Positions 16,540-63,406 of a DNA stretch of 64,000 bases are shown piece by piece. The DNA is taken from assembly GCF_014647755.1 (NCBI RefSeq), contig NZ_BMPU01000002.1:124001-188000 (forward strand). The letters run 5' to 3'. The position numbers and the translations under genes are program-made. The notes beneath the pieces are model-generated. The model was not told the DNA's origin. It saw nothing but the letters and a program-made list of their open reading frames with translations, and did not search any database. Position 1 is the first letter of the stretch; each line of letters begins with the position of its first letter. The stretch is from Porphyromonas pasteri (lineage in GTDB: Bacteria > Bacteroidota > Bacteroidia > Bacteroidales > Porphyromonadaceae).

Positions 16540-18639
16540 ATGGCTAAGGACTTCCTCCTCACCCCACTGACCTACCTCCCAGGTGTCGGACCACGGAGAG
16601 CGAAAGCGCTCGCCGAGGAGCTGGACCTATATACCTACCTCGACCTCCTGCATTACTTCCCTACGAAGTACGTCGACCGCTCACGCATCTACCAGATCCG
16701 TGAGCTCCGAGGCGAGATGCCCCACGTGGAGCTGAAGGGCTATATCCGCGACTTCAAGGAGGTGGGCGAGGGGCGTAAAAAGCGCCTCGTCGCGTACTTC
16801 ACCGATGGCACGGGCACGATCGAGCTGGTATGGTTCCGCTCCATGCCCTACATCCGCCAGCGCTACATCCCGGGGCAGTGGTACCTCGTCTTCGGCAAGC
16901 CCGTCTTCTTCAACGGCGCCTACAGCATCAGCCACCCCGAGATCGATGAGGAGTCGAAGGCCGCACAGGTTAGCGGTGGCCTCATGCCCGTCTATCCACT
17001 CACCGAGAAGCTCACCCGCGCTGGGCTGAATAGCCGCCAGATGCGCCAGCTCCTCTATGTGCTGAAGGAGGCCTGCGTCCCCCACATCACCGAGACGCTC
17101 ACCCCCGAGATCATCGAGCGGGCACGCCTTATGTCCTACGCCGAGGCCATCGAGCAGATCCACTTCCCCGTGACGAAGGAGGGACTGGAGGCAGCACGCA
17201 GACGATTGAAGTTCGACGAACTCTTCTTCATCCAGCTCCGTCTCCTCGGTATGAAGCGTGACCGTAAGGCCGCTTCTCCTGGGCTTCTCCTGCCACGTGT
17301 CGGCGATGCCATACGTGGGCTCTATGAGAGTCTGCCCTTTGACCTGACGGATGCGCAGAAGCGTGTCATCCGCGAGATCCAAGCCGATGTCATCAGCGGC
17401 CGTCAGATGAATCGCCTCATCCAAGGGGATGTAGGGAGCGGGAAGACCCTCGTAGCGCTCTTCTCCATGCTTCTCAGCGTGGACAACGGCTATCAGGCGT
17501 GTATGATGGCGCCCACCGAGATCCTCGCCCGTCAGCACTACGCTTCTCTCTGCGAATACCTCGCACCGCTGGGTATCGAGGTAGGCCTACTGATCGGGAG
17601 CACGAAGAAGAAGGAGCGCACACGCCTCCTCGCAGACCTCAGCACAGGCGCGCTGAAGATCATCGTCGGCACGCATGCCCTCTTAGAGCCCGTGGTACAG
17701 TTCGCCCATCTTGGGCTGGCAGTCATCGACGAGCAGCACCGCTTCGGTGTCGTGCAGCGCTCGGGGCTGTGGCAGAAGGGCGAGCAGATCCACCCGCACA
17801 TCCTCATCATGAGCGCTACGCCCATCCCACGTACGCTCGCTATGACCCTCTACGGCGATCTCGATATCTCCGTAATCGACGAGCTCCCACCCGGGCGCAA
17901 GCCTATCGAGACCTACCACCAGAGTGAGAGCGAGATGTATCGGGTATATCAGTTCCTCGAGCGTCAGCTGGAGGAGGGCCGTCAGGCCTATGTCGTCTTC
18001 CCTATGATCGAGGAGAGCGAAGAGGAGTCGATGCGCACGCTCGACGAAGGCTTCCGTAGATACAGCGAGCACTTCGCCCACCGCAAGATCGTGCGTGTAC
18101 ATGGTAAGATGAAGCCCGATGAGAAGGACGAGGCCATGCGTAGCTTCGTCTCGGGCGAAGCACAGATACTCCTGGCGACCACCGTCATCGAGGTCGGTGT
18201 GAACGTGCCCAACGCCTCGGTGATGGTCATCGAGGGTGCCAACCGCTTCGGGCTCTCCCAGCTCCATCAGCTCCGTGGACGTGTCGGCCGTGGTGCCAGC
18301 CAGAGCTATTGCATCCTCGTCACGGGCAAGGACCTCGGCGAAGATGCCAAGCGCCGCATCGCTATCATGGTAGAGACGAATGATGGCTTCGTCATCGCCG
18401 AAGAGGATATGCGTCTGCGTGGCTTCGGGGAGATCGACGGCACGCGTCAGAGCGGTCAGCAGCTGAGCCTGCGTATCGCCAACCCTGCCCTCGATGGCGC
18501 TATGGTGCAGTACACCCGCACACTCGCCGAGGAGATCCTCAGCGAAGACCCCGACCTACAGCTCCCGAAGAACGAGATCCTGCGCCATCGCCTCCACGAG
18601 ATCTACTACGAGCGCCCCTCCTGGAGCCAGATCTCCTAA
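16540..18639 (+). CDS. recG: ATP-dependent DNA helicase RecG
   Basis: Branch-migrating helicase that remodels stalled forks and Holliday junctions. The N-terminal wedge/OB domain (about 60-160) is followed by helicase motifs I (GDVGSGKTLVA), II (VIDEQHRFGV, the DExH-like box), III (MSATPIPRTLAM) and VI (QLRGRVGRG). The protein ends YYERPSWSQIS. Its last 35-67 bp are repeated twice downstream (18852-18886 and 19614-19680). Last gene of the purH run. Confidence 0.95.
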   Translation: MAKDFLLTPLTYLPGVGPRRAKALAEELDLYTYLDLLHYFPTKYVDRSRIYQIRELRGEMPHVELKGYIRDFKEVGEGRKKRLVAYFTDGTGTIELVWFRSMPYIRQRYIPGQWYLVFGKPVFFNGAYSISHPEIDEESKAAQVSGGLMPVYPLTEKLTRAGLNSRQMRQLLYVLKEACVPHITETLTPEIIERARLMSYAEAIEQIHFPVTKEGLEAARRRLKFDELFFIQLRLLGMKRDRKAASPGLLLPRVGDAIRGLYESLPFDLTDAQKRVIREIQADVISGRQMNRLIQGDVGSGKTLVALFSMLLSVDNGYQACMMAPTEILARQHYASLCEYLAPLGIEVGLLIGSTKKKERTRLLADLSTGALKIIVGTHALLEPVVQFAHLGLAVIDEQHRFGVVQRSGLWQKGEQIHPHILIMSATPIPRTLAMTLYGDLDISVIDELPPGRKPIETYHQSESEMYRVYQFLERQLEEGRQAYVVFPMIEESEEESMRTLDEGFRRYSEHFAHRKIVRVHGKMKPDEKDEAMRSFVSGEAQILLATTVIEVGVNVPNASVMVIEGANRFGLSQLHQLRGRVGRGASQSYCILVTGKDLGEDAKRRIAIMVETNDGFVIAEEDMRLRGFGEIDGTRQSGQQLSLRIANPALDGAMVQYTRTLAEEILSEDPDLQLPKNEILRHRLHEIYYERPSWSQIS

Positions 18640-18712
18640 GCCGCTCTTTCCCACAAGCTTTCTATCCTTCATACCTCCTCTATGAGTGATTCTTGCTCAT
18701 AGGGGAAAAGTA
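18640..18712. other. Spacer after recG with a weak hairpin
   Basis: CCTCTATGAG (18677-18686) can pair with CTCATAGGGG (18696-18705), with one G-U pair. No U-run follows on either strand, so I do not call a terminator. Confidence 0.3.
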
Positions 18713-18813
18713 ACCAGTACTGGTCAGTGATCCGAGCAGTACTGGTCGACGCGCGAAGTAGTAGTGGTCACTATATGTTACCAGTACTGGTCCGATCGCT
18801 GACCAGTACTGGT
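18713..18813. repeat. Palindrome array, CAGTACTG family, five units
   Basis: Units modelled on ACCAGTACTGGT start at 18713, 18735, 18757, 18780 and 18802, so the steps are 22, 22, 23 and 22 bp. Units 1, 4 and 5 are perfect, unit 2 has one change, and unit 3 (AGTAGTAGTGGT) is degenerate. Spacer 1 and spacer 4 are complementary at 8 of 10 positions. The array is framed by GGGGAAAAGTAACC on the left and TTCGCATCAGCCCCTCC on the right; similar flanks frame the array at 63306 in reverse. Confidence 0.9.
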
Positions 18814-18851
18814 TCGCATCAGCCCCTCCCGAGGCCCGCTAAGGATAGGCG

Positions 18852-20981: not shown

Positions 20982-21050
20982 TATATTATACCTTTTCCAC
21001 CCCCTACTGATAGAGCCGAGCTGGAGGAAGCTATACAGGAGGATAAATCA

Positions 21051-21150
21051 TCCTATATGGATCGCTGAGTCAACCTATATAGGTCCGTGAAGCGATCTAT
21101 ATAGGTCGGCGTGATGACCTATATAGGTTGACTCAGCGACCAATATAGGT
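21051..21150. repeat. Palindrome array, CTATATAG family, five units
   Basis: Units modelled on ACCTATATAGGT start at 21051, 21073, 21095, 21117 and 21139, exactly 22 bp apart. Units 2 and 4 are perfect. Spacer 1 (CGCTGAGTCA) is the exact reverse complement of spacer 4, so with units 2 and 4 the array forms a long imperfect inverted repeat. Flanks are CAGGAGGATAAATCA on the left and TTCGCACCACCCCCCTCC on the right; both recur in reverse around the array at 63104. Confidence 0.92.
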
Positions 21151-21201: not shown

Positions 21202-21325
21202 AGCAATAGTCGTTTGCGAGCAAACCAGTAGTGATACGAGGTGCGAACCAGTAGTTGTTTGGATGCAAACGAATAGTTGTTCGCACCTCGAACTTATAGT
21301 TGTTTGCATACAGACGAGTAGTTGT
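21202..21325. repeat. Degenerate array, TAGTTGT family, six units
   Basis: Units of the form ACnAnTAGTTGT start at 21202, 21224, 21247, 21269, 21292 and 21314, so the steps alternate 22, 23, 22, 23, 22. Spacers 1, 3 and 5 have a TTG....CAA-like self-complementary form (spacer 5 ends CAG). Spacers 2 and 4 are complementary to each other at 10 of 11 positions. It sits directly after the CTATATAG array, between the divergent PepSY and queA genes. Confidence 0.7.
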
Positions 21326-28220: not shown

Positions 28221-28321
28221 ACCACTACTGGTCGCTGACGGAAGCAGTACTGGTCACCGCGCGAAGCAGTACTGGTTGGTAATAGTGACCAGTACTGGTC
28301 AGACGACGAAGTAGTACTGGT
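28221..28321. repeat. Palindrome array, CAGTACTG family, five units
   Basis: Units start at 28221, 28243, 28265, 28288 and 28310, steps 22, 22, 23 and 22 bp, the same as at 18713 and in the same orientation. Unit 4 is perfect; the others have one or two changes. Spacer 2 (CACCGCGCGA) matches spacer 2 at 18747 in 8 of 10 positions. The outermost flanks AAAGCGACCA and TGGTCGCTTT are perfect complements. The array lies between the susC promoter and the terminator of the next gene. Confidence 0.88.
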
Positions 28322-28334
28322 CGCTTTACCCCAT

Positions 28335-28391
28335 ATATAAAAGGACTCCCCCTGAGGTGGTACGTATCGGCGTACCTACCTCAGGGGGAGT
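28335..28391 (-). terminator. Terminator of the phosphoethanolamine transferase gene
   Basis: A stem of about 20 bp (28345-28364 with 28371-28391, one bulge) closes on a six-base loop and is followed on the minus strand by CCTTTTATAT. Confidence 0.85.
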
Positions 28392-28411: not shown

Positions 28412-30145
28412 CTACTCGTTCGGCAGGGGACCTAAGTGCAGTCCCTTCTCACGGAAGAGGCGGATATCCTCCTCGGGAAGCTCCAGCGCCTCGATGGGCA
28501 CGCATTCGTAGCGGTCATTGAGGTAGAAGCGCACACCGCCCTTGAAACGCGAGCTGACGACCGAGAGGTCATCACGGCGATAGCGTGTACGGATACCTGC
28601 CAGCTCGAGGAGCGTGTGGAAGACGGAGTTCGACGAGACGGCCTCACGACTATTGGAGCGCCCCTGAGCGAAGAGTTGTGGGTGGGCATCTCGCCAGCGC
28701 TTGTCGCCCCAGATGAGGAGCGGTACGTGGAGCTGGTAGTAGGAGACGTCGGGCGAGGAGTGGAGGAAGCGCTCGCGGTCATCATCATAAACGTCCTCCC
28801 CGTGGTCGGAGATATAGACCATCGAAGCGGCACGATCGCCTCCCTCGAGGACGCGGATGACGGAGTCGACGAACTTATCCGTCTGGCGCACGGCATTGTC
28901 ATAGGCATTGCGCAGGACGAGGCTGTCGGCCTCCGAACCCGAGTAATGACCCTTCACAGGGAAGAAGGTATCCTCCTTCGGATAGCGGTCACGGTAGCTG
29001 AAGTGACTGCCGTAAGTGTGCAGCACGACAAAGAGCTTCGGGTGCTCACTCGCCATAAGACGCTGCAGATAGGGGATCATATCGCTATCGTAGAGACGGC
29101 GCTTCTCACGGCGAAGCTCCTTACGGATGGGGTGATGCTCGTCCCCTTGCATAGCGAAGAAGTCCACATAGCTGTGGTTCCCTGGCTGATTGGAGATGAA
29201 GGCCGTATAGAAGCCCGCTTCACGGAAGGCCGAGAGGATCCCCTGTACATGGGGCAGATTCTCCGCCGAAGACGCATCGGCAGGCGAGAGGATGATGGGG
29301 ATACTCTTATACGTCGTATTCGACTGCGTCAGGACATCAGCGAAGGCGATAAGCCCACCATCACGATGGAGCGAATCGATATGCGGGGTCGTCTCACGGG
29401 GATAGCCGTAGAGGCTCCAGCTGTGCGCACGTGACGTCTCACCGAGGATGAGGACGTAGATCTCACGCTCGTCCTTGGCACGCTCGGAGGTAGCCTTGTA
29501 GCAGAAGTCCTGGCTGGTGCGGTCGTAGTGCAGCACCTCATAGAGCTTCGTCGTCGCCAGATACATATTGTAGAAGACACTCATCGGATAGACCTCCGCA
29601 CGCAGATGCACGTAGGGGAAGCGCTTCTTCGCCCCTATATATATAGGTAGGGCGACGAGAAGGATGAGCGCAGAGACGAGGGCCATACGGCGACGGAAGC
29701 GTGGCGAGAGGCTCTCACGGCTACGAGCCGAAAGCGTCGCCACGACGAAGGTCAGGGCGTAGAAGCCCCCGCTGGCGAGGATGGGCCAGAGGATGTTGGA
29801 GAGGAGTTCGCCCGCTTCATCAGGCTCCGAGGTGAAGATATTCAGGAGCATATCCACCGCGACGACGGAGCCACTGAATATCGTCAGGAGCACGAGCTGG
29901 AAGGCATGGAGCAAGACCAGGACGAAGAGCCCCCAGTAGACACGCCCAGGACGCTTCGCCGAGAGCAGGAGAAGCATGTACACCGGTAGCATCAGCAGGA
30001 TGTTCAGCACACGCCCTACGGCAGGCTGCTGCATGACGACGGAGAGCACGACATTGGGCAGGAGAAGCGCCAGCGTCAGTATCCAGTAGTAGCATCGCTG
30101 GTCAGCACGGCTTACCCAAGCCTGGAGCCGATCCCATATACGCAT
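28412..30145 (-). CDS. Lipid A phosphoethanolamine transferase-like sulfatase-domain protein
   Basis: Inner membrane enzyme of the EptA/CptA type that adds phosphoethanolamine to lipid A or core sugars from the periplasmic side. About five membrane helices occupy residues 20-185. The periplasmic sulfatase-fold domain starts near YVLILGETSRAHSWSLYGY (metal-binding Glu). The likely nucleophile threonine lies in SNTTYKSIP, and the distal metal site is in VYISDHGEDVYDD. The 577 residues are typical. Enzymes of this family alter polymyxin sensitivity; here this is inferred from family only. rlmH lies 55 bp upstream. Confidence 0.88.
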   Translation of the reverse strand: MRIWDRLQAWVSRADQRCYYWILTLALLLPNVVLSVVMQQPAVGRVLNILLMLPVYMLLLLSAKRPGRVYWGLFVLVLLHAFQLVLLTIFSGSVVAVDMLLNIFTSEPDEAGELLSNILWPILASGGFYALTFVVATLSARSRESLSPRFRRRMALVSALILLVALPIYIGAKKRFPYVHLRAEVYPMSVFYNMYLATTKLYEVLHYDRTSQDFCYKATSERAKDEREIYVLILGETSRAHSWSLYGYPRETTPHIDSLHRDGGLIAFADVLTQSNTTYKSIPIILSPADASSAENLPHVQGILSAFREAGFYTAFISNQPGNHSYVDFFAMQGDEHHPIRKELRREKRRLYDSDMIPYLQRLMASEHPKLFVVLHTYGSHFSYRDRYPKEDTFFPVKGHYSGSEADSLVLRNAYDNAVRQTDKFVDSVIRVLEGGDRAASMVYISDHGEDVYDDDRERFLHSSPDVSYYQLHVPLLIWGDKRWRDAHPQLFAQGRSNSREAVSSNSVFHTLLELAGIRTRYRRDDLSVVSSRFKGGVRFYLNDRYECVPIEALELPEEDIRLFREKGLHLGPLPNE

Positions 30146-33104: not shown

Positions 33105-33204
33105 AGTAATAGTGGTTTGCCCTTGGACCAATAGTCGTTCGGATGCAAACCTATATTGGTCGCTGAGTGAAGCTATATAGGTCACTGCGACGACCTATAT
33201 TAGT
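33105..33204. repeat. Hybrid palindrome array: TAGTnGT-type then CTATATAG-type units
   Basis: Five units start at 33105, 33127, 33149, 33171 and 33193, exactly 22 bp apart. The first two (AGTAATAGTGGT, ACCAATAGTCGT) resemble the degenerate family at 21202; the last three (ACCTATATTGGT, AGCTATATAGGT, ACCTATATTAGT) belong to the CTATATAG family. Spacer 2 (TCGGATGCAA) matches spacer 3 of the array at 21202, and spacer 3 (CGCTGAGTGA) matches spacer 1 of the array at 21051 at 9 of 10 positions. This looks like a recombinant array. Confidence 0.8.
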
Positions 33205-62504: not shown

Positions 62505-62654
62505 AGCCCTTTCGGCGGGGAGTACGGCGGGGCGCAGAGGCGCCCTAGAATGCGGGCTTGCGGAGGGAGGCATATCACTACTCGTTCGTAGTGCAGACCT
62601 ATAGTGGTTCGCGCGTCGACCTATATAGGTCGCGACCTTTAAACCAATAGAGGC
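62505..62654. repeat. Decayed CTATATAG-family array with its left flank
   Basis: Units can be seen at 62597 (ACCTATAGTGGT) and 62619 (perfect ACCTATATAGGT), 22 bp apart. Weaker units start near 62575 and 62643. The left flank (TTAGCCCTTTCGGCGGGG, then AGTACGGCGGGG and, further on, GCGGGCTTG) is shared with 63028-63085 beside the intact array at 63104. This looks like an older copy of the same element. Confidence 0.65.
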
Positions 62655-63103: not shown

Positions 63104-63203
63104 ACCTATATTGGTCGGCGGGCTGACCTATATAGGTCGTCATCGCGACCTATATAGCTTCGTCGTCGGACCAATATAGGTCAGCCCGCCGACCTATATA
63201 GGT
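63104..63203. repeat. Palindrome array, CTATATAG family, five units (reverse orientation)
   Basis: Units start at 63104, 63126, 63148, 63170 and 63192, exactly 22 bp apart. Units 2 and 5 are perfect ACCTATATAGGT; units 1 and 4 are ACCTATATTGGT and its reverse complement; unit 3 has one change. Spacer 1 (CGGCGGGCTG) is the exact reverse complement of spacer 4. Flanks are GGATGGGGGTAGTGTGAA on the left and TGATTTATCTTCCTG on the right, matching the array at 21051 in reverse. Confidence 0.93.
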
Positions 63204-63305: not shown

Positions 63306-63406
63306 ACCAGTACTGGTCGCCGAAGTGACCAGTACTGGTAACTGATATCAACTAGTACTACTTCGCGCTGCGACCAGTACTGGTCAGCCGAGTGACCAGT
63401 ACTGGT
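63306..63406. repeat. Palindrome array, CAGTACTG family, five units (reverse orientation)
   Basis: Units start at 63306, 63328, 63351, 63373 and 63395, steps 22, 23, 22 and 22 bp, the mirror image of the arrays at 18713 and 28221. Four units are perfect ACCAGTACTGGT; the middle one (ACTAGTACTACT) is degenerate, as in the array at 18713. The left flank GGAGGGGGATATGCGAA and right flank GGTTACTTTCCC match, in reverse, those of the array at 18713. Confidence 0.93.

Follow-up and report, generated by a model that had tools for sequence, protein, structure and literature searches.

Dispersed arrays of five palindromes with a fixed step pattern in Porphyromonas, and a candidate HU-type partner protein

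Short palindromes, either in tandem or dispersed and read by a dimeric protein, characterise the MetJ boxes, the ArgR boxes, the SlmA SBS and the matS sites of MatP, and to our knowledge each of these proteins keeps one stable motif across many species. HU, by comparison, is regarded as a generic DNA binder, and its canonical form has no sequence preference. Within the genus Porphyromonas, two described systems are of interest. BrickBuilt, a MITE minisatellite of Porphyromonas gingivalis, is made of 1-23 repeats framed by leader and tail segments, with terminal inverted repeats that are IS5-like, and the text of the paper contains no word beginning with 'palindrom' (PMC4596501). The HU protein PG0121 of the same species has been described as an HU with little DNA discrimination, and autoregulation of E. 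coli hupA is cited in the same work (PMC3969353).

The DNA analysed here, called the window, is a stretch of 64,000 nucleotides (G000:C2:124001-188000) from the 2.17-Mb genome of an oral Porphyromonas, here termed the host. It contains three copies of an element, family A, composed of five units of the 12-bp palindrome ACCAGTACTGGT separated by spacers of 10, 10, 11 and 10 nt; the window has 11 occurrences of CAGTACTG, where 0.84 would be expected. The features of the three copies and their surroundings are as follows.

16540..18639, plus strand: recG (699 aa), the gene preceding the 18713 array
18695..18712, plus strand: conserved 5' flank of the 18713 array, containing an A-tract, consensus GGGGAAAACGA
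18713..18813, plus strand: family A array, units at 18713, 18735, 18757, 18780 and 18802, steps 22/22/23/22, weak unit 3 AGTAGTAGTGGT
18769..18779, plus strand: 11-nt AT-rich spacer cactatatgtt of the 18713 array, which is the source of the 23-bp step and sets the polarity
18814..18830, plus strand: conserved 3' flank of the 18713 array, consensus TCGTTTTACCCC, actual letters TCGCATCAGCCCC
28221..28321, plus strand: family A array, units at 28221, 28243, 28265, 28288 and 28310, steps 22/22/23/22
28348..28391, strand not assigned: ordinary terminator-like inverted repeat between the end of the 28412 gene and the 28221 array, read from the sequence
63306..63406, minus strand (opposite orientation): family A array, units at 63306, 63328, 63351, 63373 and 63395, steps 22/23/22/22 (mirror)

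The first-pass annotation of this DNA had described one 23-bp step at the matching place in the three copies, a degenerate third unit in two of them and a CGCGA ending of spacer 2 in all copies once oriented alike, and had proposed that the array is a single element with a polarity and not a group of independent sites. These observations were confirmed: the long step is found at the same place in the 18713, 28221 and (in mirror image) 63306 arrays, unit 3 reads AGTAGTAGTGGT in the first and ACTAGTACTACT in the last, and spacer 2 ends in CGCGA in 3/3 window arrays. The 28221 array has one or two changes in each of units 1, 2, 3 and 5. Among the 43 ACCAGTACTGGT arrays in about 1.26 Mb of the genome, 38 consist of exactly five units stepped at 22/22/23/22 or its mirror, namely 26/28 in C1:1-800000 plus the window and 12/15 across C3 and some stretches of C5, these C5 stretches having been picked since they contained matches; the position of the 23-bp step is hence conserved across copies and not random. 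The exceptions are one array with four 22-bp steps, one each with six, nine and four units and one split by a MITE. The pattern is also present in 30/30 best BLAST copies genome-wide. The number of family A arrays is estimated at about 75 per genome, scaled from 119 perfect units in 1.26 Mb. Of these units, 116 lie within arrays and three are solitary (two of the three adjoining MITE sequence), in agreement with one element and not independent sites. None of the 38 arrays overlaps a called gene, with ~82% of the DNA coding according to gene calls from a simple in-house model.

Polarity was assessed in the 46 arrays left after near-duplicate removal, with copies oriented by the 23-bp step. Units 1 to 5 are perfect in 36, 13, 15, 27 and 32 copies, and carry at least two mismatches in 3, 7, 14, 6 and 3 copies, respectively. 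Unit 3 is weaker than units 1 and 5 (Fisher p=0.0005), as is unit 2 relative to unit 4 (p=0.006). The weak third unit proposed previously is therefore conserved as a tendency (at least two mismatches in 14/46) and not as a property of every copy, being perfect in 15, and the CGCGA ending is likewise a tendency genome-wide, found in spacer 2 of 10/46 copies and in every other spacer of 0/46. The shorter ending GCGA occurs in spacer 2 of 14/46 copies and in the other spacers of 0-1 copies, and TAT or ATA occurs in the 11-nt spacer of 33/46 copies and in 0-1/46 of the others. The AT-rich long spacer, together with the weakest unit 3 and a unit 2 weaker than unit 4, indicates that the polarity of the family A element is real. 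The flanks are symmetric (GGGGAAAACGA, array, TCGTTTTACCCC), with conservation fading about 20 bp outside the array. Since unit number, step order, AT-rich long spacer, weak units 2 and 3 and flanks are common to copies whose spacers are saturated, the array is best described as one polar element.

From the perspective of selection, the units and the lengths of the spacers are constrained, the spacer lengths being nearly invariant between family A copies: pairwise divergence between copies is 0.091 (9%) in the units versus 0.547 (55%) in the spacers. Positive covariation was sought between paired segments; none was found in family A (z of -2.8 for u2:u3, -2.8 for u3:u4, -3.3 for s1:s2 and -1.4 for s1:s4), and in family B, described below, s1:s4 reaches only z=1.6. 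Spacers 1 and 4 are complementary at the consensus level, a complementarity without covariation within arrays. The lack of covariation between paired segments argues for selection on double-stranded palindromes and their spacing and not on an RNA hairpin, and covariation tests on 38, then 46 arrays led to rejection of the view that family A is selected as an RNA or cruciform hairpin. It is very improbable that the arrays act as bidirectional intrinsic transcription terminators through RNA hairpins. Single family A copies do fold strongly as predicted RNA (z=-9.5 and -6.4), the A-tract/T-tract flanks are conserved across species with different palindromes and many period-22 repeats lie at 3' ends in other Bacteroidales, but compensatory pairing is absent, neighbouring units are less complementary than shuffled units, and pairing alone would not keep many arrays on one palindrome. 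Gene context does not support gene terminators either, as the neighbouring genes are divergent for 12/38 A arrays and convergent for just 5/38, near the null set by intergenic length. The 18713 array begins 74 bp after the stop codon of recG, and 90 bp separate the 28221 array from the end of gene 28412-30145 on the minus strand; the inverted repeat at 28348..28391 means that the 28221 array is not the sole possible terminator of that gene. Comparison of the arrays with Rfam returned nothing above threshold, with one chance-level match (mir-12, E=0.95). Many arrays with saturated spacers nevertheless share one palindrome, which suggests a shared trans-acting recogniser. Self-pairing alone would let such arrays drift to differing palindromes, and the absence of this drift points in the same direction.

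Family A is one family in a wider, apparently undescribed class of near-palindromes stepped at 22 bp, on which no paper was found in the literature collection searched. A second family, B, is as numerous as family A in the host genome and shows steps of 22/22/22/22 in 32/35 arrays, with ACCTATATTGGT as first and ACCAATATAGGT as last unit. It is represented in the window by the following features.

63104..63203, plus strand: family B array, five units (the first ACCTATATTGGT), steps 22/22/22/22, some 100 bp away from the 63306 array
63104-63203 with C2:187080, 194061, 204785 and 214927: repeated locus with a B and an A array

Four copies of this locus, each with a B and an A array about 100 bp apart, are spread over ~28 kb; near-copies of the 63306 array are found at C2:194279, 204990 and 215136, and the A copies of the repeated locus show few unit changes (0-3 of 60). 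Further families of the same genome are C, D (CTATATAG), E (AACGTATACGTT), F (TTATACGTATAA), G (CGTGCGCACG) and H (AGTAATATAACA). Additional arrays of B, C or mixed type with 22/23-bp steps lie at 21029-21150, 21202-21300, 33105-33204 and 62597-62654 of the window. At C5:112779 of the host, a nine-unit array has A and B units succeeding each other in 22-bp register, and its mixed units, such as ACCAATACTGGT, resemble half-site mosaics. At C1:610596-611243 (L061), the AT-rich 11-nt spacer of one family A array contains a D-type MITE with ends GAGACCATTGC and GCAACAGTCTC, bordered by ATATAT on either side.

In a blind scan, near-palindromes stepped at almost exactly 22 bp, with other palindromes, were found in other Porphyromonas and also in other Bacteroidales, while shuffled sequence gave 0 matches. 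Among period-22 tandem repeats of a RecG-neighbourhood set, which takes in a few Porphyromonas loci, 33/41 are intergenic, and 13 are palindromic versus 2.1 expected. The nearest named relative of the host is Porphyromonas sp. oral taxon 278 W7784 (G014), with a RecG 85% identical. Its main family is ACCTAC(N)GTAGGT at a 23-bp step, that is, a 13-bp unit plus a 10-nt spacer, and these arrays have the same A-tract/T-tract flanks as family A. On its contig C36 (L121, L123, L125, L126), several ACCTAC arrays are broken by runs of ~100 N, as if the assembly broke there. The exact family A pair was not found in the GTDB r220 genomes scanned, from which the host's own records were possibly left out, and is essentially missing from 25 congeners; viral contigs gave isolated two-unit matches only. 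Family E is found in 7/38 family genomes, and in Porphyromonas sp. COT-239 an E array (AACGTATACGTT x5, 22 bp) follows recG. Two Porphyromonas species have a five-unit array in the gap after recG, with differing palindromes, E at L187:12296-12395 and A at 18713 of the window. Also after recG, L190:12192-12278 carries AAAAGTTCCCGAACTTTTTTTT x4 at 22 bp and resembles tandem intrinsic terminators, and in an uncultured Bacteroides (L244:1847-2053) two period-22 arrays with the palindromes TGTTCATTGAACA and ATACGTACGTAT adjoin each other.

These distributions bear on the possibility that copying spread the arrays as BrickBuilt-type minisatellites or MITE-like repeats, selfish or neutral, whose units are conserved without the help of a binding protein. 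Random insertion away from promoters would agree with the location of the arrays between genes, no array was found in the G014 gap orthologous to the 28221 array, one G014 family E array is 89% identical to a host E array at an unrelated locus, and D-type units are found within a MITE that has IS5-like ends. Neutral copies, however, would lose their units as quickly as their spacers, at odds with the divergences given above. Close pairs of copies are few and mostly confined to repeated segments, a search of the host genome for the Y1 (PF01797) transposase of the RAYT type gave 0 matches, and spread by copying leaves the link to HU-HIG genes, described next, unexplained. We consider this origin unlikely.

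A period-22 array lies just upstream of 26/34 non-redundant HU-HIG (PF18291) loci and downstream of 0/34, although these loci are related by descent and not independent, and 5.6% of random genes have such an array upstream. The best lag is 22 in 26/26 of the upstream arrays, with lags of 15-35 allowed, and in 4/4 relatives from viral contigs (40-46% identity), one of which scores only 26. Two arrays from the blind scan, ACGTCTAGACGT x5 at C1:60228 of G009 and GTGCAAGTGCAC x3 in G016, were later seen to lie upstream of HU-HIG genes. The family E array lies 126-127 bp upstream of the same HU-HIG gene in two genera. An E-type paralog (at least 80% identity) is encoded in six of the 38 family genomes, E arrays are present in 6/6 of these, and in five of the six an array ends 126-127 bp before the E-type gene; in G014, E arrays are present and no E-type paralog was found. 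In general, the palindrome upstream of HU-HIG genes is the same among close orthologs and different between paralogs of one genome. The host has five HU-HIG paralogs, each with its own palindrome upstream, namely A, D (CTATATAG), E (AACGTATACGTT), F (TTATACGTATAA) and H (AGTAATATAACA), and both proteins tested exceed the Pfam HU-HIG cut-off of 26.2 bits (P0003, 56.3 bits; P0002, 50.1 bits). The canonical HU of 106 aa (C1:577592) has no upstream array. Several hundred bp beyond its gene, at C1 ~578.4-578.7 kb (L381), there is a 16-unit period-22 array of AGGAATATACCT followed by AGTAATATAACA, with no HU-HIG gene seen beside it.

The candidate partner of family A is listed below.

C5:135865-136383: A-type HU-HIG protein, 173 aa, with a family A array upstream

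The array lies 260 bp upstream of the HU-HIG gene C5:136015, a placement expected by chance in about 2% of cases (in ~21/895 genes an A array lies no more than 300 bp upstream). Modelling of its structure (mean pLDDT 75.5) gave matches to HU-type proteins, with 4fmr of Bacteroides vulgatus as best PDB entry. The best match of the A-type protein in other genomes of the genus is in G014 (62%), and both proteins form a 100/99 clade with long branches; the PTGR stretch is altered in A-type proteins. The species pair with a palindrome switch in homologous arrays is therefore also a pair with fast-evolving A-type proteins. Alternatively, the arrays could be platforms for another DNA-binding protein, with the HU-HIG genes under shared control, for instance by a master regulator, and not recognising their own arrays. 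The constraint on the units demands merely some trans-acting factor, the G014 ortholog of the A-type gene (L372) shows no ACCTAC array within 420 bp upstream, and no HU-HIG partner gene was matched to families B, C and G, the first two of which count in favour of another binder. A single master regulator, however, would not yield paralog-specific palindromes that are constant among close orthologs, and we regard this alternative as rather unlikely.

Judging from sequence, the family A array is probably a five-site binding platform for the HU-HIG paralog C5:135865-136383. Weighing against this reading are the ~2% odds of a chance adjacency to C5:136015, the lack of an array seen upstream of the G014 ortholog, the G014 family E arrays with no E-type gene found, and the partnerless families B, C and G, of which B equals A in number. 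Since canonical HU binds without sequence preference, sequence specificity of HU-HIG is an assumption here. In the mechanism proposed, the dispersed intergenic element offers five palindromic sites of 12 bp, spaced at two helical turns; an HU-HIG dimer would occupy each palindrome, and the 22-bp steps would align the dimers on one face of the DNA. The AT-rich 11-nt spacer beside the weak centre could act as a hinge and give the element its direction. The array 260 bp upstream of C5:136015 would regulate that gene by feedback, and the remaining ~75 copies may act as nucleoid or regulatory sites throughout the genome. The same pairing of one paralog with one palindrome may apply to the other HU-HIG genes of Porphyromonas and its relatives. 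More tentatively, the Bacteroidales might have diversifying HU-type proteins, each paralog reading its own array of two-turn steps, with one pair expanded to dozens of arrays in some species, and with protein and palindrome changing together between sister species. If so, they would possess sequence-addressed chromatin proteins, and natural protein-DNA pairs would be available whose specificity has visibly switched between close species. Such pairing could also explain the unexplained period-22 minisatellites of Bacteroidales, including BrickBuilt-like repeats, and a repeat so far anonymous would become a protein-DNA code that can be tested.

Compared with the known systems, family A is most similar to BrickBuilt, as both belong to the same genus, occur between genes in many copies and consist of tandem repeats of ~23 nt in which some positions are conserved and others vary, with predicted stem-loops (PMC4596501); family A has the ~23-nt intergenic tandem repeat, with a period of 22-23 and 0/38 arrays overlapping a called gene. 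In contrast to BrickBuilt, family A has five units in a fixed 22/22/23/22 pattern and no leader or tail segments, the conservation of its flanks ending ~20 bp out. Nor does it have IS5-like ends: terminal inverted repeats of this type (GAGACC..) are not conserved around family A and are present around the D-type element. The REP, BIME and REPIN sequences mobilised by RAYT are also dispersed intergenic palindromes of bacteria, whereas family A is a rigid five-unit array and not a set of paired REPs, and a RAYT/REPIN identity was rejected as no Y1 transposase was found in the host genome. With HU/IHF it shares an HU-type protein and a proposed regulation via an inverted repeat upstream of a gene (PMC3969353), but here each HU-HIG paralog goes with its own 12-bp palindrome repeated at 22 bp. 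The putative joint change of HU-type protein and palindrome may be likened to co-evolving satellite DNA and its binding proteins. Finally, the arrays resemble the sites of MetJ, ArgR, SlmA and MatP in being short palindromes, tandem or dispersed, and differ from them in that the palindrome varies between species and paralogs while the step and the number of units stay constant.
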